DNA of 20,484 bases from Pancytospora philotis (taxonomy: Eukaryota; Microsporidia), in contig JALRLY010000221.1 in assembly GCA_023647555.1 (NCBI GenBank), forward strand, positions 3,681-24,164, in the 5' to 3' direction. Positions within the stretch are counted from its first letter, which is position 1. Every line of letters begins with the position of its first letter. The notes under the pieces were generated by a model that made no database searches, was not told the origin of the DNA, and saw nothing but the letters and a program-made list of their open reading frames with translations. Positions 6,681 to 20,097 of this stretch are shown here, in pieces. Position numbers and translations under genes: made by a program.

Positions 6681-7508
6681 TTATTCGATGTTCGCCATGC
6701 CCAGTGCTTTGCTGACCAGCTTTTCTCTGTCGAAGTCGGCCTTGAGCACCTCGAGCTCGACCTCGTAGATCGAATTGTCCGCGGAGTCTCTGTGGCTCTT
6801 CACCTCCGTGAGATCGAAGACGTAGTCCTCGAATGTGTAGCTCTCTCGCGCTCTGTAGCGCTTCTGCACCACAGTGTAGACTGCTTTCTGGCGCTTGAGC
6901 GCCTGGTCATCGGTCGCCACCGAGGAAAAGTCGCTGGCCTCCTCGGACATCGACCGGTCCGCCTCGTGCACGGCGCCGGGCTGCGCCTCGAGCGTAAGCA
7001 GCCTTATGACCTCTGGGGACTGGCTCCTAATCTCCACCGGCTCCAGCTCGGTCTCCTGGCTGAGGGCGATGCGCACGTCGTATTTAAACAGAGGGAAGTG
7101 GATGGTGATGCATTTGAGCCTCTTTTTGCTCTGGTACTTCAGCGCGCTCTCGCTCCGCACCACCCTGACGTTCCCGCTGAGAACCAGCACCGCGTCGGTG
7201 CTCTGGGATATCTCTGGCGCCGTGCCAGTATCCTGTCCTGCTTCTTTGGGTGCCGCATTCCCCAGCACCTTCGCGAGCTCTGCCTTGATCTTGTCGTAGT
7301 CCTCGCGCGCCACGCCGCTTACGAAGGACATGTTGGGCGCGTTCTTCTGGTATACGATCGGATGGGGCGCCGGCAGCACGACGCGCTCCTTCGTGATCCT
7401 GCTGCAGAGCCTGCCGAGCCGCAGCTCGAGCTCCTTGCCCGCCCCGAGCTCGCAGGAGTCGATGAATTTCCGGATGCAGACACGCACGTCCCCCAGTCCG
7501 CCATCCAT
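6681..7508 (-). CDS. mRNA 5'-triphosphatase (Cet1-type, tunnel/CYTH superfamily)
   Basis: Beta-subunit type capping enzyme that removes the gamma phosphate from nascent mRNA, the first step of 5' cap formation in the nucleus. In the 275-aa form, residues 25-33 read KELELRLGR, the metal-binding glutamate motif (E26, E28); DVRIALS is at 144-150; RARESYTF at 219-226 and FDLTEV at 231-236 match the Cet1 basic and strand motifs; YEVELEV at 248-254 is the second metal-binding motif (E249, E251, E253). Fungi and microsporidia use this metal-dependent fold. The start at 7508 has AATTT and CCC just upstream. An alternative ATG at 7652, with TTTTTTACCC about 14 nt before it, would add 48 residues. The stop codon lies inside AATAAA. 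Confidence 0.88.
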   Translation of the reverse strand: MDGGLGDVRVCIRKFIDSCELGAGKELELRLGRLCSRITKERVVLPAPHPIVYQKNAPNMSFVSGVAREDYDKIKAELAKVLGNAAPKEAGQDTGTAPEISQSTDAVLVLSGNVRVVRSESALKYQSKKRLKCITIHFPLFKYDVRIALSQETELEPVEIRSQSPEVIRLLTLEAQPGAVHEADRSMSEEASDFSSVATDDQALKRQKAVYTVVQKRYRARESYTFEDYVFDLTEVKSHRDSADNSIYEVELEVLKADFDREKLVSKALGMANIE

Positions 7509-7790
7509 GCCGGGCAAATTCTCAGGATTTTTGTAGAAAGATGCGTCAGAAGGCAAGCTCGTAAAAGGTCTATTGGTGCTGTCGTTGCATGCGCAGCCCG
7601 CAAGCTTCAGAGCCGGTAAGAGCAAGAAGTATCGACGAGGATTGAGATACATATGGACCTGGCAAGGGTAAAAAATTATGAATCAAAATTTATTTTTTAA
7701 AATTACACTGATCTCTATTATCAACAGCTAAACTGTTATGAATAACGTATTTACCCCTTTTATAGTCACTGCTTACGTACTAGGATTTTT

Positions 7791-8579
7791 TCAGCAGGAG
7801 CGCTGCGCCAGTGCCTGGAGCTGCTGCACGATCTCCCCGGTGCTTCCTGCAAGCGCTCTTGGATACTTGAGATGCACCAGGTACAGCGCGTCGCCGGAGC
7901 TGCTCTTCGTGTGGATGCCCTCTGTGTTCATGTCGGACTTTTCTATGCGCAGCGCGAAGGCCGCGCCGCGCTCCAGTGCCGCTACGTAGGCGGGCAAGTC
8001 GAATGCATCGAATGCTGCGCTGTCCGGAGCCAGGGTGTGCAGGAAATTCTGCGGCTGGTCCTTTGAGAGGCTGAATGCCGCTGTGAAAGCCTCTTTCTCC
8101 TGGCGCATGGTGTAGCTGTCCTTGCTCCTGTCCGGATTCGCCTCCTCGGTAGCGCCGACCAGGTCGATGCGGATGTCATGCGTGAACGAGGGATGGTGGA
8201 TGAAGCACAGGAGCTTGCGCGTCTTCCGCTGGTAGATGGGCACGCGCCCGCGATGGGAGATTTTACGGACACCGCGCCCAAAGGAAATGCTGTAGCCGCA
8301 GCTCGCGACTCCGAGCGAATCAAGCTTGCGCGCCAGCGCCCTGTACGTGCCGGCGCCTGCGTCGCTGCTCCATAGCAGCTCGTCAGGAAGCGCCGTGAAG
8401 ATGACCGCATGCAACGCACCGATGGACGCGCGGTACTTGGGCTCCAGCACGTACAGCAGCTGGCCCAGAGCGATCTCGATGTGCGAATACTCTGCCTCCC
8501 ATTTGATGCCTGTGAGGATCTTGTCGAGACAGCGCTGGATGTCCAACTCAGCGAGCTCGCCGGTGCTCTCCAGAAACAT
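7791..8579 (-). CDS. degenerate paralogue of the mRNA 5'-triphosphatase
   Basis: A 262-aa protein lying directly 5' of the triphosphatase on the same strand. By eye it aligns along its length: HIEIALGQL (33-41) against ELELRLGRL, KLLCFIHHPSFTHDIRIDL (122-140) against KCITIHFPLFKYDVRIAL, and ALYLVHLKY (231-239) against SIYEVELEV. Of the catalytic glutamates only E35 remains; E26 becomes H33, and the three glutamates of the C-terminal motif become L, H and K. It is therefore unlikely to bind metal or hydrolyse phosphate, yet the frame is intact, with a CCCC element before the start. It may be a structural or regulatory partner; Cet1-type enzymes can form dimers. The paralogy is inferred from visual alignment. 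Confidence 0.6.
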   Translation of the reverse strand: MFLESTGELAELDIQRCLDKILTGIKWEAEYSHIEIALGQLLYVLEPKYRASIGALHAVIFTALPDELLWSSDAGAGTYRALARKLDSLGVASCGYSISFGRGVRKISHRGRVPIYQRKTRKLLCFIHHPSFTHDIRIDLVGATEEANPDRSKDSYTMRQEKEAFTAAFSLSKDQPQNFLHTLAPDSAAFDAFDLPAYVAALERGAAFALRIEKSDMNTEGIHTKSSSGDALYLVHLKYPRALAGSTGEIVQQLQALAQRSC

Positions 8580-8755
8580 AATCTGGGGATTTGCAACAGC
8601 GCAATTTCTCGTAGCAATGCAACGATTGACAAGCAGTGCATTGATCGAAGAAGCCATGCAATATTCACTAGCACATCGACGAATACAATAAATGCACACA
8701 CAGCATCAAAGCGATATTATAAGCAACAAACACACAGCGCAGTGAAACGAACAAT

Positions 8756-10857: not shown

Positions 10858-13029
10858 ATGAGAGAATGCATAGCTGGGGCCCACCCGAAGAAAGACGATG
10901 TCAGAAGGCTCATCCATGCTATTTTTAGGAACAAAAAGCCGACCATGAGCTACTACGAGGCCACGCAGCGCAGCATTGCGCACAGATACGACCCGTGCTG
11001 GATCAGCAGGGTGGAGACGGACATCGAAAAGCTCGTTGCGCCTGCGTTTGCTGCCCTGTTCGAGCGGCACAAGCAGCCGCTGCACGATGAGACTGCCATC
11101 CTCGCGGACAGCCTGTGCCACGGCGCGACCAACACGCAGTTCACCGACAGCCTGTCGAGCTGCAACATATTCAGCAGCCTGCCTGCGCCGGAGGCAGAGC
11201 AGCAGCAGCGAATTATGAATTGCGTGCTCCGAGTATCTCCCGCCCACGCTGAGCAGCTGAGAGAGAATGCCGAGCGTGCCTGCTCTCTCATAAACAGCCT
11301 GGCTAAGGCACGGAGAAAGTACAGGGAGGTGATAAAGAGGATCTCCGTGATTCTGCAGCCCGTGGACTACGAGGTGCGCTTCCTCGGCAGGCGCGTTGGA
11401 ATGCTGGAGCGCGCATACAAGAGGCTCGTGCACAAGCTCATAGCCAAGCACCGCGCGGCCGTCACTGCTGCGCTCAGCGCTGTGTTCCTGCAGGAAAAGC
11501 TGGCGTTTATGCGCGGAAATGGGCTGGCCGAGGTAGAAACACTGACCGATGCATGCGAGGAGAGTCCCGCGAAGAGGCTCTGTCCCAACTCTCATTCGAC
11601 AAAGCCCATCGCATGCAGCAAGGCGATCAAGCAAGCGCTCGCCCTCCTGCAATCTTACAGCCTTAAGAACACGATCCTGCGGCGTGTCAGGAGGCGCATG
11701 GCCCAGCACGACCATTTGGTGCTGAAGGGCCGGGGCCTGGACTTCAAGTTTATGCAGACGTACTTCCAGGGGCTCTCTGCATTTTTCACCGGCAGTTTTT
11801 ATGCGCCGGTCGAGAGAAAGGCGCTCAGGCTGCTCTGTGAGGAATTAGATGGACAGGCGGTTGTGGAGCGATTGAAGCAGGGCTTCTCTGACGCGGTCCT
11901 TTCCGATTTATACGATGTGTACTTCAAGGCCGGGATGCTCGATCGGCTTGTGGTGGTTTACAGGGCCTTCATTGCTGTGCCCGTTTCCGATGACTATATC
12001 CAAGCGCTCTACGATGCCTATCAGCTGCATAAGCGCGTGCTGGGCATCTTTACCAGCCCGGTGTTCGAGGAGGTGTGGGCCCAGCAGCTGCAGAGCGCCC
12101 TCGATACGCCTCCTGCGGCAAAGCATTTCATTGAGACCGTTGATCGCCATATGAAGCTGCGCAGCAGAGGCGCGGACGGGTCTGATGATTTACTAGCCTT
12201 TCTTGCTCTGCTGGTCGATGTATCCAAGAACTACGAAAGCATACTGGACGGGCTGCGGCCTGCGCTCGGCGATCGGCTGCTGCGTGGCTGCTCCGATCTA
12301 GACGATGAGAGGGCGTTCCTTGGGCGGATTAGGCACAGCCAGGCAGCGCGGATGAAGGTTATGGTCAGGGATATCGGTGCAAAGGAGCGGGACAGCTGCA
12401 CGCTGCTGAAGGCCTTTCAGTGGCCGGCGTACAACGCAGAAGCTGTGCCCATTCTAGATGATTCTGCTGAATGCACAGAATTCCTGCGAAGCATTGCAAC
12501 TTTTAAGGAGAGCATCGAAAGCAAGCTGGCCGATGAGGGCCGCAAGGTAAAATGGCTCGATGCTCTCAGCAGGGTCGATGTAGAGATTAACGGAAGGCCG
12601 CTGCGCCTTACGCTGTTCCAGTATGCCATGCTGCTCAGGGTCAGGCAGGACGGATCAGTTTCGCTTGCCAGCCTGTCCGTACCGTCGGTCTTCCGCGAGC
12701 AGCTGCAGCTCCTAAAGAGCGGCGGGCTCTTGGAGGAAAGGAGCGGTGCTCTGTGCTTCCCGTCTGTGTTTGCCTACGGAGATTCCAATCGGTGCGTGCC
12801 TGAGCATTTCCAGCTGTGCACTGTGCAAATGGACGAGGCGGGCCACTCGAGCTCTGTGGACCACAAGTCCGTCGTAGAGGCCAAGATAGCGCGGCTGATG
12901 AAGAAGAAAAAGACGCTTCCGCTGGCTGAGCTTGTCCGCGAGATCCCCGACTCTGAGAAGTGCATAGAAGGACTCGTGGCAAAGGGGCTCTTAGAGCAGA
13001 AGGGTGATGAGATTATGTACGTAGTTTAA
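10858..13029 (+). CDS. cullin (ubiquitin-ligase scaffold)
   Basis: A 723-aa cullin, close to the usual family length. The N-terminal 400 residues form helical repeats. The cullin-homology domain is visible at KVMVRDIGAKERDS, then RKVKWLDALSRVDVEINGRP and LTLFQYAMLLRV, matching the RKLxWxxxLGxxxL and StyQmaiLL region. The C-terminal winged helix reads AKIARLMKKKKTLPLAELV and then IEGLVAKGLLEQKGDEIMYV, as in the IVRIMKxRK...L neddylation domain; K682 matches the NEDD8-accepting lysine. This separates it from APC2, which lacks that site. The protein would bind a RING partner and E2 and carry substrate adaptors. Which cullin class it is cannot be settled by eye. CCC directly precedes the ATG. Confidence 0.85.
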   Translation: MRECIAGAHPKKDDVRRLIHAIFRNKKPTMSYYEATQRSIAHRYDPCWISRVETDIEKLVAPAFAALFERHKQPLHDETAILADSLCHGATNTQFTDSLSSCNIFSSLPAPEAEQQQRIMNCVLRVSPAHAEQLRENAERACSLINSLAKARRKYREVIKRISVILQPVDYEVRFLGRRVGMLERAYKRLVHKLIAKHRAAVTAALSAVFLQEKLAFMRGNGLAEVETLTDACEESPAKRLCPNSHSTKPIACSKAIKQALALLQSYSLKNTILRRVRRRMAQHDHLVLKGRGLDFKFMQTYFQGLSAFFTGSFYAPVERKALRLLCEELDGQAVVERLKQGFSDAVLSDLYDVYFKAGMLDRLVVVYRAFIAVPVSDDYIQALYDAYQLHKRVLGIFTSPVFEEVWAQQLQSALDTPPAAKHFIETVDRHMKLRSRGADGSDDLLAFLALLVDVSKNYESILDGLRPALGDRLLRGCSDLDDERAFLGRIRHSQAARMKVMVRDIGAKERDSCTLLKAFQWPAYNAEAVPILDDSAECTEFLRSIATFKESIESKLADEGRKVKWLDALSRVDVEINGRPLRLTLFQYAMLLRVRQDGSVSLASLSVPSVFREQLQLLKSGGLLEERSGALCFPSVFAYGDSNRCVPEHFQLCTVQMDEAGHSSSVDHKSVVEAKIARLMKKKKTLPLAELVREIPDSEKCIEGLVAKGLLEQKGDEIMYVV

Positions 13030-13558: not shown

Positions 13559-14605
13559 CTACCGCATCCCTATGGAATCCCTTTTGGTGACCAGGGCCGG
13601 GCGGTCGGCGATCTTCCAAAACTTCAACGACTCATCCGCCCCGAGGCTAACGATGGAGCACTGGTCGGGGCTGAGCGCGGTGTGGAGGACGCGCCCCTCG
13701 TGGCTGCCAAAGCTCATCTGCATCTTCATGCCGGAGACCCGCCACAGCCTAAGATCGTTCTCGCTGAAGCCGTGGCTGCTCACGAGCTCCTTGTAGCGGC
13801 TCAGGTACAGCAGCGAGCACACCTGGCTGTCCACGGCCACCGTCTTGAGGCACATGCCGTCGTTGGTGTCCCACAGCTTTATCGACTTGTCCTTGGTGCC
13901 GCCGCCCGTCGCCAGCACGTTGCTGCGCCAGGGGCACCAGGCGAGCGCCTTCACCGCCGATCCGTGGCCCTTGAGGATCCGCGGGACGGGCGAGCCGGCG
14001 CGCCACACGCGCACCGTGTCGTCGTTGCTGCCGCTTGCCAGATGGTCATTGCACCACTTGAGCCCGCATATCTCCTGCGTGTGCCCGCTGAATGTGCCGG
14101 CCACGCCGCTGCGCCGGTCTATGTTCACTATCCGGCCCGCCCGGTCGCCCGTGCTGATCAGCCGGTCCGAGGCGGCCGCCGCGCAGATCCTGACCGTGTG
14201 CTGCTTGCTGCCGCCGCACACGCCCTTCTCGTAGTCCAGCAGCGTAAGCGCGCCGGTGGAGTCCCCGACCGCGAGCCCGCCGTCCAGCCCGACAAGGCTG
14301 CTCACGTACCCGCCCGCCACGGAGAAAAGCTCGTTGACCTCCTTGGTATCCACGTTGTATGTGTACACGCACTCGCCCAGGCCGATGCTGATCACGGGCC
14401 CGTTCCAGTCCAGCAGGTTGAGGTAGAAGTCGTCCATGAGCCCCGGCGCGTCGAGCACGCGGTAGGGCGCGCGGTCGATGGGCCGGGCGGCCACGCGCTT
14501 CGAGCGCTCCACGACCTCGGGTATCGCGTAGATCGCTGCGTTCGAAAAGCTGCCGCGCGGATCGTCAGGGAGCGCCTGGTGCAGACCCGGGAAGTCCAAG
14601 CGCAT
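13559..14605 (-). CDS. CDC20: Cdc20-family APC/C activator, WD40 propeller
   Basis: A 348-aa coactivator that recruits D-box and KEN substrates to the anaphase-promoting complex. The diagnostic block RVLDAPGLMDDFYLNLLDW (49-67) is followed by GLGECVYTYN, GHTQEICGLKW (174-184), HLASGSNDDTVRVW, AVKALAWCPWRSNVLATGGG (217-236), SQVCSLL, YKELVSSHGF and SPDQCSIVSLGADESLKFW. The CPW.SNVLATGGGT and YKEL..HGF wording favours Cdc20 over Cdh1. The protein ends IGMR, a variant of the C-terminal Ile-Arg tail. Only about 48 residues precede the propeller and no C-box (DRFIP type) is visible. The start at 14605 has CCC adjacent and TAAATTTTTAGG just upstream; an in-frame TAA in that element excludes a longer uninterrupted form. 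Confidence 0.92.
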   Translation of the reverse strand: MRLDFPGLHQALPDDPRGSFSNAAIYAIPEVVERSKRVAARPIDRAPYRVLDAPGLMDDFYLNLLDWNGPVISIGLGECVYTYNVDTKEVNELFSVAGGYVSSLVGLDGGLAVGDSTGALTLLDYEKGVCGGSKQHTVRICAAAASDRLISTGDRAGRIVNIDRRSGVAGTFSGHTQEICGLKWCNDHLASGSNDDTVRVWRAGSPVPRILKGHGSAVKALAWCPWRSNVLATGGGTKDKSIKLWDTNDGMCLKTVAVDSQVCSLLYLSRYKELVSSHGFSENDLRLWRVSGMKMQMSFGSHEGRVLHTALSPDQCSIVSLGADESLKFWKIADRPALVTKRDSIGMR

Positions 14606-14901
14606 GGGCAGCCTAAAAATTTAGCGCCCTAAAATGACTGAGTAGGGATGTGTCTGGGTTGTCTAGCGCTGGTGCGAAGCCCTGGTGTATTGTAAGTGAG
14701 TGATTCTGGCGATTTATACAAGTATAGACATACCAGTGTGCTATTTACACGGAGTATGATGAAGGTGTAGCAGCTTAAGAGTATAGAAAATGAATACATG
14801 AACTTAAAACCTCATTATAGAATATTTATTACAGATTATGGCAGATTCATTAGCTCGTACTTTTCATCGCTCGCACCGACGCCATTGCTCATCGAGAATG
14901 C

Positions 14902-15141
14902 TCACTGCCCCATCGGGCCACCGTACCTCGGCATGGCTTCGTCCTCGAAGACCACATCAGGTACAAAGGAGTGCTGCACCCCGTCAGCTGCGCTGTCATC
15001 AGCATCCTCAAAGTGCCTGCTTGTGCTGCTCCTCTCGGTGATCTCCTTGAGCACCCTGTAGCGCTTCAGATTCGTCAGCGGCTTCCTCGCATGGCTCCCC
15101 AGGCCGATGCTCAAATTCTCCTTGTTTTGCGATCCGAACAT
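14902..15141 (-). CDS. KEN-box/D-box protein, candidate mini-securin
   Basis: A 79-aa hydrophilic, probably disordered protein encoded just upstream of Cdc20 on the same strand. It has a KEN box at residues 7-9 (SQNKENLSI) and a destruction-box match RKPLTNL at 19-25 (RxxLxxL), both recognition signals for APC/C-Cdc20. A basic stretch (KRYRVLKEITER) and an acidic C-terminal half follow, with FEDEAMPR at 65-72. This order - N-terminal KEN, D-box, acidic tail with a short E-rich motif before proline - is that of securin, the separase inhibitor, although securins are usually longer. The start at 15141 has CCC immediately before the ATG. Function is an inference; another APC/C substrate or inhibitor is possible. 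Confidence 0.5.
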   Translation of the reverse strand: MFGSQNKENLSIGLGSHARKPLTNLKRYRVLKEITERSSTSRHFEDADDSAADGVQHSFVPDVVFEDEAMPRYGGPMGQ

Positions 15142-15761
15142 GGGCTGCGTTTTCCCGGGATACTTGAGTCCAGGCACCGGGACCAATTGGATCAGCGAGC
15201 AGAAAACGCGGCGTGTCAGTGATCAATGGGCGCAGCTTGACACAAGTGCATCACTTGATAGGTTAGCTTGCCGGTACCACTAAAAATTGGAGCAACTTTG
15301 CGCCGTAAAATTGTGAATATTTGTTTTTTTGAAAATCACAACGTGTCCGTTACCGTCATACTGGAATGGACGAATGTTGGCAGATGGTTGCGACATGCAA
15401 TATTTGCAGCCAGCCAAGCGGAGGCATACACGCACTGGGAATTCAAAGAAAGTTGAATAATGCATCTACAGTCAGCTTATCAGTTAACGTACAGCCATAG
15501 ATACATCAATAAATCGCTGCACTCTATACATAGCACTTCAAATAGCATTAAATTTCCCGCACGTCACAAATCTCGAACGGCATCAGCTCAACTTTTATTA
15601 ATTTGAAACCTCGCATATTTTCTGGCTTCCGCCCCCTGTTTATCCCGCCAGCTAGCACCAAAATGCTGGTGCAATAGAATCCCAGCCAATTCCCAGAATA
15701 AACCGACACTTCTGCGCAGCCAGCACAGAGATCGGTCTTATCGCCAAAATTTTTCGTGCCC
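15142..15761. other. intergenic between divergent genes, no gene recognised
   Basis: About 620 bases with CCC elements at both ends. The GYF-gene side has AAAATTTTT (15746-15754) and CCC (15759-15761). A minus-strand 71-codon frame (15548-15763) and a plus-strand 62-codon frame (15268-15456) exist, but neither has the composition of its neighbours; the first begins by translating the promoter element itself. Confidence 0.45.
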
Positions 15762-16595
15762 ATGAAGGCTTATGAAGAGCAGATTAAGCTGCTGGAGAAC
15801 GCGGCCAAGCCCGCCGATCTGGTGGACAGCTACATCTTTTCTGAGGCGCCCGCGCCGCTGCGGGTCAACACCCCGCTGACGCCCTCCCAGGAGGCGCTGC
15901 TCTCCGACAGCAAGAAGGTTTTTTTCACGAAGCGCCCCGCCAAGCGGAGCACCGGGAAGCAGAGCCTCTGGAACGTGGACATGTCCTCGTCGGCGCCCGG
16001 CTACTTCGACGACTCGGGCAACTTCATCCTGGACGTCAAGGACAAGGTCGCGACCATGTGGCTCGTGAGGCAGGGCGGCGAGGAGAAGGGCCCGCTGTCG
16101 TCNAACGAGGTCAAGAAGCTGGTCGAGGCGGGCGAGCTGCGGCATGCGCAGATCAAGCGGACGTTCGACCGCGGGTACGTCGAGGCCGACAAGCTGATGG
16201 CNGAGGTCCCCTCGTTCTACTACGCGCGCAACATCAACAAGTTCTTCAGCGACAACATCATCGCGGAGCAGCGCACCGAGCAGCCGAGCACGGACGGCGA
16301 TGACTTCTACAGCAGCACCGTCGCCAAGACGCCGAACCCCCGGCTCCACAACTTCCTCAGCGCCAACAACATCACGGCCAGCCCGGACTTCCTCGTGCGG
16401 CTCATCAAGAACAAGACCAAGTCCGACGCGGTGAGCGCGCTGCACAGCGTGACGGGCCTCGAGGCGGTCCAGAACACGGTGCTGGTCGAGCTGCTCGTGA
16501 AGGACGCCAAGACCCAGATCCTGAGCGACGTAGACAAGGACGGTTTCTTCATAAACAACGGCAGCCAGAAGGGCCGCAGGAGCTACCGGAAATAA
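15762..16595 (+). CDS. GYF-domain protein
   Basis: A 277-aa protein with a GYF-like domain at about 99-150 (MWLVRQGGEEKGP, then EVKKLVEAGELRHAQIKR and FDRGYVEADKL). GYF domains bind proline-rich partners. The preceding GYFDDSGNFIL (80-90) resembles the GHFDADGNYFL segment of CD2BP2/Lin1, a U5 snRNP factor; the alternative is a GIGYF/Smy2-type translational regulator. The C-terminal part (PNPRLHNFLSANNITASPDF onward) is helical and unassigned. Two ambiguous bases, 16103 and 16202, fall in third positions of TCN and GCN codons, so residues 114 and 147 are Ser and Ala regardless. ATG 15762 is chosen over an upstream in-frame GTG because CCC directly precedes it. The stop TAA lies inside AATAAA. 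Confidence 0.72.
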   Translation: MKAYEEQIKLLENAAKPADLVDSYIFSEAPAPLRVNTPLTPSQEALLSDSKKVFFTKRPAKRSTGKQSLWNVDMSSSAPGYFDDSGNFILDVKDKVATMWLVRQGGEEKGPLSXNEVKKLVEAGELRHAQIKRTFDRGYVEADKLMXEVPSFYYARNINKFFSDNIIAEQRTEQPSTDGDDFYSSTVAKTPNPRLHNFLSANNITASPDFLVRLIKNKTKSDAVSALHSVTGLEAVQNTVLVELLVKDAKTQILSDVDKDGFFINNGSQKGRRSYRK

Positions 16596-19152: not shown

Positions 19153-20097
19153 TTATATAATAGATGAGGTGGAGCTGGCGGCTTTGCTCTCGCTATCGCT
19201 ATCATCCAGTATGGTTCGCTTAGCAGCTTTGGTCGCGCTGTCCGTGAGCTTAGACTGCTCGCCGCCGGTAGGGGTGGCACTTTCGCCGGCAGCCGGGGTG
19301 CTCGAGCTTCCGCTGTCCGAGCCGCTGCTGCCCCAGCACTTTGACTTGTCCGTGCTACTCGCATCGGGCTGCTTGCTGTCGCTGCCAGACCAGCAGAGTT
19401 TCGCAGAGTTTGCGGCTTCTTCGCCAGTCGCGGCTTTACCGTCAGCTGCTGCTCCATCCTCAGTCTTTGAGCCGCTGCTGCCCCAGCACTTCGACTTGTC
19501 TGCGCTGTCGGCATCGGGCTGCTTGCTGTCGCTGCCGGACCAACAGAGCTGCGAAGAATTTGCGGCTTTATCGCCAGTCGCCGCATCGCCAGCTGCAGTC
19601 CCGTTCTCGGTCTTTGTGTCACTGCTGCCCCAGCACTTCGATTTATCCGTGCTATCCGCGTCGGGCTGCGCGCTGTCACTGCCGAACCCAAACAGCTTTG
19701 AGCTGTTCACCGAGTCCTGTGCGTCCTTTGCATCTCCCGTTCCACCGTTCGCCGAGTCCTGCGCATCCGTGGATCCGCTGCTGCCCCAGCACTTAGAGTC
19801 CTGCGCATCGCCATCGCCGCCGAAACCGAGCAGGCTCGCGCTGTTGCTCTTGTGGCTCGTAGAGCAGACCGAGGAGCTTTTCTGGCAGTTCACGCCGTTC
19901 GGGCAGTCCACTCCGGTGGGGCACAGGAAGGTCTGCTTTTTCCCATTCGAATCGGCATCCGCTGTGACCTGGCCGTTGGCGGTCGGTGTGACCGTGCTGC
20001 TATCTGGAGGACAGGTGCCGTCCGCGCTCGTATCGTCCGATCCGAACCAGGCCCAGGCAGCTGCGCAGTGCATGAATGCGTGTAGTAACACCAGCAT
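19153..20097 (-). CDS. secreted Cys/Trp repeat protein
   Basis: A 314-aa low-complexity protein rich in Ser, Asp, Gly, Ala and Lys. Residues 1-16 form a signal peptide (MLVLLHAFMHCAAAWA). A small cysteine cluster follows (C29, C59, C65, C71, C78; FLCPTGVDCPNGVNCQ). Residues 88-258 hold four units of about 50 residues, each pairing a LCWSGSD or LFGFGSD motif with a DKSKCWGSS motif. The C-terminus is acidic (LDDSDSES). The pattern resembles a secreted structural or surface protein, perhaps of spore wall or polar tube, but no family is recognised. No AAATTT element is seen; the promoter type differs from housekeeping genes. The fully open antisense frame reflects composition only. Confidence 0.75.
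   Translation of the reverse strand: MLVLLHAFMHCAAAWAWFGSDDTSADGTCPPDSSTVTPTANGQVTADADSNGKKQTFLCPTGVDCPNGVNCQKSSSVCSTSHKSNSASLLGFGGDGDAQDSKCWGSSGSTDAQDSANGGTGDAKDAQDSVNSSKLFGFGSDSAQPDADSTDKSKCWGSSDTKTENGTAAGDAATGDKAANSSQLCWSGSDSKQPDADSADKSKCWGSSGSKTEDGAAADGKAATGEEAANSAKLCWSGSDSKQPDASSTDKSKCWGSSGSDSGSSSTPAAGESATPTGGEQSKLTDSATKAAKRTILDDSDSESKAASSTSSII
19321..19800 (-). repeat. tandem ~150-bp coding repeats, four copies of the CWGSS motif
   Basis: The marker CTGCTGCCCCAGCACTT (plus strand) recurs with CCCCAG starting at 19331, 19481, 19628 and 19784, giving spacings of 150, 147 and 156 bases, all multiples of three. The first two intervals are most alike; the copy nearest the N-terminus is the most diverged. 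Such arrays change length by recombination. Confidence 0.85.

Follow-up and report, generated by a model that had tools for sequence, protein, structure and literature searches.

A Candidate Minimal Securin of 79 Amino Acids Encoded beside Cdc20 in the Microsporidian Pancytospora philotis

Introduction

Securin functions as the brake against chromosomes separating too early. Securins are too divergent to be recovered by ordinary searches. In both human securin and the Pds1 protein of yeast, the KEN box is found at about residues 8–11, before the D-box. Pds1 is about 370 amino acids in length and Cut2 about 300.

Fungal and animal securins have been described as non-homologous (PMC3195147). The segment of human securin that occupies separase as a mimic reads EIEKFFP, and a docking motif, LPE or VPE, located 11–14 residues downstream, is kept in vertebrates and some other groups, although not in all (PMC6858450). 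In the yeast and worm complexes, securin makes a long contact along separase (PMC6858450). As for the motifs associated with the APC/C, the consensus of the D-box is given as RxxLx[D/E][O]xN[N/S], that of the KEN box as [DNE]KENxxP and that of the ABBA motif as Fx[ILV][FY]x[DE] (PMC5717348).

For the Microsporidia, Table 2 of PMC3195147 holds an entry for separase but none for securin. Encephalitozoon has been described as an exception to the large size of separases (PMC4626109). The literature searched, which included excerpts of PMC3195147 and PMC4626109, yielded no description of a securin from Microsporidia.

The window analysed here is a stretch of 20,484 nucleotides. It originates from Pancytospora philotis, a nematode-infecting microsporidian, whose genome was searched as 83 contigs comprising 3.68 Mb. 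A cyclin encoded on contig C45 of this genome shows 100% identity to a P. philotis protein at NCBI. The species has been placed in the Enterocytozoonida clade (PMC10393165). Within the window, an open reading frame (ORF) of 79 amino acids is a candidate for a minimal securin, a reading based on sequence to which a probability of slightly under one half (about 0.48) is given.

The Candidate Gene and Its Neighbourhood

The ORF list of the window places the candidate on the minus strand, with the TGA stop codon included in its span (Table 1). The Cdc20 gene lies 296 bases downstream and shares the strand. A preliminary description of this DNA had reported the coordinates and length of the ORF, its KEN box, its RKPLTNL and EDEAMPR motifs and its same-strand Cdc20 neighbour, and each of these was recovered as described.

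Table 1. Coordinates of the candidate ORF, its motifs and associated signals, and the neighbouring Cdc20 gene within the window.
Feature	Position	Strand	Details
Candidate minimal securin or small APC/C substrate	14902..15141	-	79 aa + stop codon; motifs, coding signals
KEN box, residues 7–9, preceded by Asn (NKEN, 6–9)	15115..15123	-	
D-box RKPLTNL, residues 19–25 (R at P1, L at P4, L at P7; Asn at P9 missing)	15067..15087	-	
Pseudosubstrate-like EDEAMPR, residues 66–72	14926..14946	-	P6 E, P4 E, P1 P on the Pds1 reading
Partial ABBA-like DVVFED, residues 62–67, without F at P1	14941..14958	-	Overlaps EDEAMPR
GCCC directly 5′ of ATG	15142..15145	-	
AATAAA, about 70 bases past the stop codon	14825..14830	-	
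Cdc20, 348 aa	13559..14605	-	WD40_CDC20-Fz, E = 1.9e-92

Two further ORFs, of 87 and 67 amino acids, overlap the candidate on the opposite strand. A set of 73 ORFs of 300 amino acids or more, none overlapping another, served to train codon scores, and the candidate was compared with 443 pieces of real genes and 139 spurious ORFs. The candidate stands at the 37th percentile of the real-gene pieces and is equalled by 6.5% of the spurious ORFs, a comparison that is somewhat generous to real genes because the pieces were cut from the training genes. Both overlapping antisense ORFs have a negative score. Synonymous codon use alone provides poor separation, with 24% of the spurious ORFs reaching the candidate's value.

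Signals flanking the ORFs were counted in 71 long genes and 137 spurious ORFs, leaving out two of the 73 genes and two of the 139 spurious ORFs that have fewer than 60 bases upstream. In 26 of the long genes and five of the spurious ORFs, GCCC stands no more than 8 bases from the ATG, and AATAAA within approximately 150 bases of the stop codon is found in 16 and two, respectively; the candidate possesses both. An AAATTTT-type upstream motif, present in 29 of the 71 long genes and in none of the 137 spurious ORFs, is missing from the 60 bases 5′ of the candidate. On the basis of codon use, the GCCC at its ATG and the AATAAA, the 79-residue ORF is probably a gene, and probably an unannotated one.

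Other genes of the window were also characterized. A cullin-like protein of 723 amino acids is encoded near Cdc20 at 10858–13029 on the plus strand, with matches to Cullin_Nedd8 (E = 3.5e-4) and Cullin (E = 0.015) that fall below the Pfam cut-offs; it could represent a diverged cullin and not APC2. On the minus strand, an mRNA capping triphosphatase (PF02940, E = 2.6e-19) sits beside a look-alike ORF of 288 amino acids (6681–7652 and 7791–8657). The latter has no match in Pfam and is possibly a diverged tandem duplicate of the triphosphatase. A 314-amino acid protein at 19153–20097 (minus strand), with an N-terminal hydrophobic stretch and DKSKCWGSSGS-type repeats, has no Pfam match and looks secreted. 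A protein at 15762–16595 (plus strand) resembles the GYF domain with a score that does not reach the Pfam cut-off (E = 0.0028), and its translation contains undetermined residues (X).

Homology Searches

Sequence homology of the 79-residue protein to a known securin family was not detected in Pfam, in the protein collection or among the PDB matches. The protein has no hit in Pfam or NCBIfam. Against 5.8 billion proteins, ten candidates sharing sequence words were obtained, none at E ≤ 10, and the ORF itself was also not returned. This search is of low sensitivity, as exact five-residue words must be shared; it did return the Cdc20 neighbour. The six matches in the PDB were weak (E = 0.53–1.1), all to the hydrogenase maturase HydE, and were taken as chance. 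Compared with its own genome, the protein matches only itself, and a search for synteny in contigs of viruses and prokaryotes yielded nothing usable, the one locus obtained being 34% identical and part of a bacterial MAG record. The Pfam Securin and Mad3_BUB1_I models found nothing in the genome, which proves nothing because neither model rang in the control genomes. The protein is probably disordered, with whole-chain charge–hydropathy only just on the disordered side.

The Cdc20 Receptor and the APC/C

The pockets of Cdc20 were compared with those of human Cdc20, using residues that we take to be those of the D-box and KEN pockets. In the D-box pocket the two proteins share L176, D177, P179 and Y207, with Ile in place of V200. 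In the KEN pocket D184, N329, T377, Q401 and R445 are kept and N331 is replaced by Asp. Among 84 Cdc20 hits, the KEN-pocket triplet reads NDD in three, this Cdc20 included, NDN in 74 and two other forms once each, while five hits were unmatched by the triplet pattern. Both pockets appear to be largely preserved.

In the genome only this Cdc20 passes the family cut-off; 12 further matches score lower. Of these, the best two were considered as a second coactivator (Cdh1) and rejected, as they fit other WD40 families better; NCBIfam provides no name for the first of the two. The single coactivator detected here differs from the orthologues of both Cdc20 and Cdh1 reported in four microsporidia (PMC3195147).

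Regarding the APC/C itself, APC10 is present in the genome (E = 3.2e-23). The APC11 model, which also catches other RINGs, gave 16 matches (best E = 2.1e-12). Seven of these 16 are located on a single contig (C58, 16133–40548), five of them within 16133–22019, pointing to RING proteins that may have expanded locally. A HORMA protein (E = 7.9e-9) is possibly Mad2.

The Degrons

The KEN box and D-box that the preliminary description had placed at the N-terminus are borne out by the sequence, the D-box core resembling that of most of the cyclins described below, though its Asn at P9 is missing. The downstream Pro of the KEN consensus is also missing from the protein.

The chance occurrence of such motifs was assessed in six-frame ORFs that were complete and reached 60 amino acids or more. 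The 609 ORFs of this kind came from the window and 20 other stretches of 10 kb, which together amount to 220,484 bases or 6% of the genome. KEN occurs in six of the 609 ORFs, and within this 6% of the genome it falls in the first 30 residues of the 79-residue ORF only. RxxLxx[ILVM] is found within the first 40 residues of 45 of the 609, whereas R.PL.N[ILVM] has one occurrence in the 104,784 residues of the background, in the candidate. Genome-wide (approximately 10,200 ORFs), the expected number of ORFs that combine KEN within the first 30 residues with the loose RxxLxx[ILVM] within the first 40 is about 1.2, so the bare pair of motifs is unremarkable. With KEN and the tighter PLxN[ILVM] the expectation is about 0.03 ORFs, which is not a clean p-value because the motifs of the candidate itself enter into the rates and because the tight pattern was derived from this ORF together with the cyclins. 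It is the tight form of the D-box, the location beside Cdc20 and the coding signals that speak for the 79-residue ORF.

The comparison with cyclins covered the best 44 of 515 matches (P0121–P0164), the genome's own cyclin included. In 37 of these 44, P[LF]xN[IV]TN is present within the first 40 residues, and the motif of the genome's own cyclin is GVPLKNITN. Thus, the PLTNL of the candidate looks like a local destruction-box dialect. As the canonical RxxLxx[ILVM] occurs in the first 40 residues of four of the best 44 only, this dialect is usually without the Arg that the 79-residue protein has. KEN is found in the first 60 residues of three of the best 44. It was also noted that Lys or Arg often stands a few residues before the cyclin P[LF]xN[IV]TN, a D-box form of this lineage in which Arg at P1 is mostly missing.

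The degrons of the 79-residue protein are therefore credible: they agree with the consensus forms of the KEN box and D-box, and a similar motif stands at the N-terminus of related cyclins. This fit suggests that the protein would be degraded via the APC/C, and it is likely that the protein is a substrate or ligand of APC/C–Cdc20.

Separase and Its Substrate

The preliminary description had held that the lack of a separase gene in the genome would refute a securin. The genome does encode a separase, of 625 amino acids (Peptidase_C50, E = 3e-34). Its HGSG at 520 (H520) aligns to human separase, as does C542, where one deposited human sequence has Ser. The PDB chains that it matches are 2,160 or more, 1,596 and 1,262 residues long, presumably those of human, yeast and worm, along with chains of 540–619 residues taken as fungal protease-domain constructs. 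A separase reduced to 625 residues fits a short inhibitor.

A Scc1-like protein of 314 amino acids (Rad21_Rec8_N, E = 8.1e-9) contains exactly one [DES]xExxR site, SIEELRR at 164; the consensus reported for the yeast separase site is SIEVGR (PMC4626109). The C-terminal Rad21 model found nothing in the genome search and was sub-threshold on this protein (E = 0.067), and an entry for Scc1 in Microsporidia is missing from Table 2 of PMC3195147. For these reasons, the name Scc1 is likely rather than certain.

The Acidic Tail and Its Alternative Readings

When EDEAMPR is read as a mimic, E68 occupies P4, M70 P2, P71 P1 and R72 P1′. It has Glu at P4, a hydrophobic residue at P2 and Arg at P1′ in common with the genome's own SIEELRR. 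With the Pds1 segment DIEIAPQR (PDB 5u1s_B) it shares an acidic P6, Glu at P4 and Pro at P1, while its P5 is Asp where both Pds1 and human securin have Ile. A large hydrophobic P1 is described in a review, whereas EDEAMPR has Pro. Shuffling of residues 26–79 produces [DES]xExxP in 7.2% of cases and [DE]xEx[MLIVF]P in 1.2%, and the match is weak.

No LPE or VPE follows EDEAMPR, there being only seven residues after R72, and a VPD upstream is on the wrong side; the docking motif NxLxPhiE is likewise absent from the protein. The long contact along separase could not form because the chain ends seven residues past R72, although such a contact may be unneeded with a separase of 625 residues. Of the two fungal forms given in the preliminary description, DIEIAP is seen in Pds1, and DIEYMP was not found in the 20 papers searched for it. 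Its account of an acidic inhibitory tail goes as far as an EDEAMPR that resembles Pds1 position by position except at P5; it is weakened by the frequency of the pattern in shuffled tails and the missing LPE. The tail hints that the protein could bind and inhibit separase.

A different function may be served by the same region. DVVFED fits three of the four defined ABBA positions and could be an ABBA-like Cdc20-binding motif instead of part of a mimic. The protein would then be a pseudosubstrate inhibitor of APC/C–Cdc20, of the Acm1, Mes1 or Mad3/BubR1-tail type, in which KEN, D-box and DVVFED jointly bind Cdc20 and keep other substrates away. All three elements can be read as Cdc20-binding, adjacency to the Cdc20 gene fits equally, and the model of the Mad3/Bub1 N-terminal domain, which rang in no control genome, had no match in this one. 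However, P1 of DVVFED is D and not F, leaving the set of KEN, D-box and canonical ABBA incomplete. The four lysines (7, 20, 26 and 32) in and around the degrons would be substrate-like, and the order of KEN then D-box near the N-terminus, along with an acidic tail, suits a securin better. Such an inhibitor is an unlikely identity for the protein.

Slightly more doubtful is a small APC/C substrate with no link to separase, for instance a regulator of the spindle or of replication that is degraded at anaphase. The degrons are the best-supported part of the protein, a KEN box plus a D-box is found in many APC/C substrates (PMC5717348), and the tail match is weak. On the other hand, an inhibitor is to be expected where a separase and an apparent Scc1 site are both encoded, and the background of 6% of the genome contains no second ORF with such an N-terminal KEN. 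Least probable is a real small gene with a coincidental KEN and RxxL, or a spurious ORF, which would suit the expectation of some 1.2 such pairs genome-wide, the failure of the low-sensitivity collection search to return the ORF, the overlapping antisense ORFs and the missing AAATTTT-type motif, but is opposed by a codon score in the real-gene range beside negative antisense scores, by GCCC and AATAAA, and by the tight D-box core.

Proposed Function as a Securin

As a minimal securin, the protein would be recognized through its N-terminal KEN box and D-box by the Cdc20 encoded next door, acting on the APC/C, and would then be destroyed at anaphase. The C-terminal EDEAMPR would occupy the active site of the 625-residue separase, where it would imitate the Scc1 site SIEELRR without being cleaved.

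The securin proposed in the preliminary description retains a probable gene, the degrons, Cdc20, a separase and a Scc1-like site, and loses ground on the weak tail match and the absent LPE. It is not filed as a proven securin because homology was looked for and not found, and because separase binding is a prediction. Tentatively, as far as the literature searched goes, it may be smaller than any other known securin and the first to be described in Microsporidia.

If the securin reading is true, two degrons and one seven-residue active-site mimic are contained in 79 residues and paired with a separase of 625. The genome, with its single detected APC/C coactivator, would reveal how few components an anaphase switch requires. 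A small candidate beside CDC20, facing a reduced separase, makes the restraint of separase in minimal eukaryotes directly testable. It also provides a search recipe for securins: a short ORF with an N-terminal KEN, a PLxN-type D-box and an acidic [DE]xExxP tail.

Comparison with Known Systems

Pds1 of S. cerevisiae has N-terminal degrons followed by an acidic [DE]xExxP segment, as does the 79-residue protein, and Cut2 of S. pombe is likened to it by this layout of degrons and then an acidic segment, a likeness of arrangement and not of compared sequence. In contrast to both, the candidate is far smaller, has no VPE-type motif after the mimic and no long C-terminal part, and its sequence homology to them is not detectable.

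Like human securin (PTTG1), the candidate has KEN near the N-terminus, then a D-box and a possible mimic, which in the human protein is of the EIEKFFP type. The position of its KEN box ahead of the D-box is shared with human securin and Pds1 alike. It differs from PTTG1 in the absence of LPE, of NxLxPhiE and of a match to the Pfam securin model.

The resemblance to Acm1, Mes1 and the Mad3/BubR1 tail is that of a small protein with KEN and D-box and a possible degenerate ABBA. Unlike these, the candidate is without a canonical ABBA motif and carries the four lysines in and around its degrons.

Compared with microsporidian mitotic cyclin B, the candidate lacks the cyclin fold and the Asn at P9. 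It has the RxxLxx[ILVM] that is missing from the first 40 residues of 40 of the best 44 cyclin matches, and the two proteins have in common an N-terminal destruction-box-like core, PLxN[ILV].
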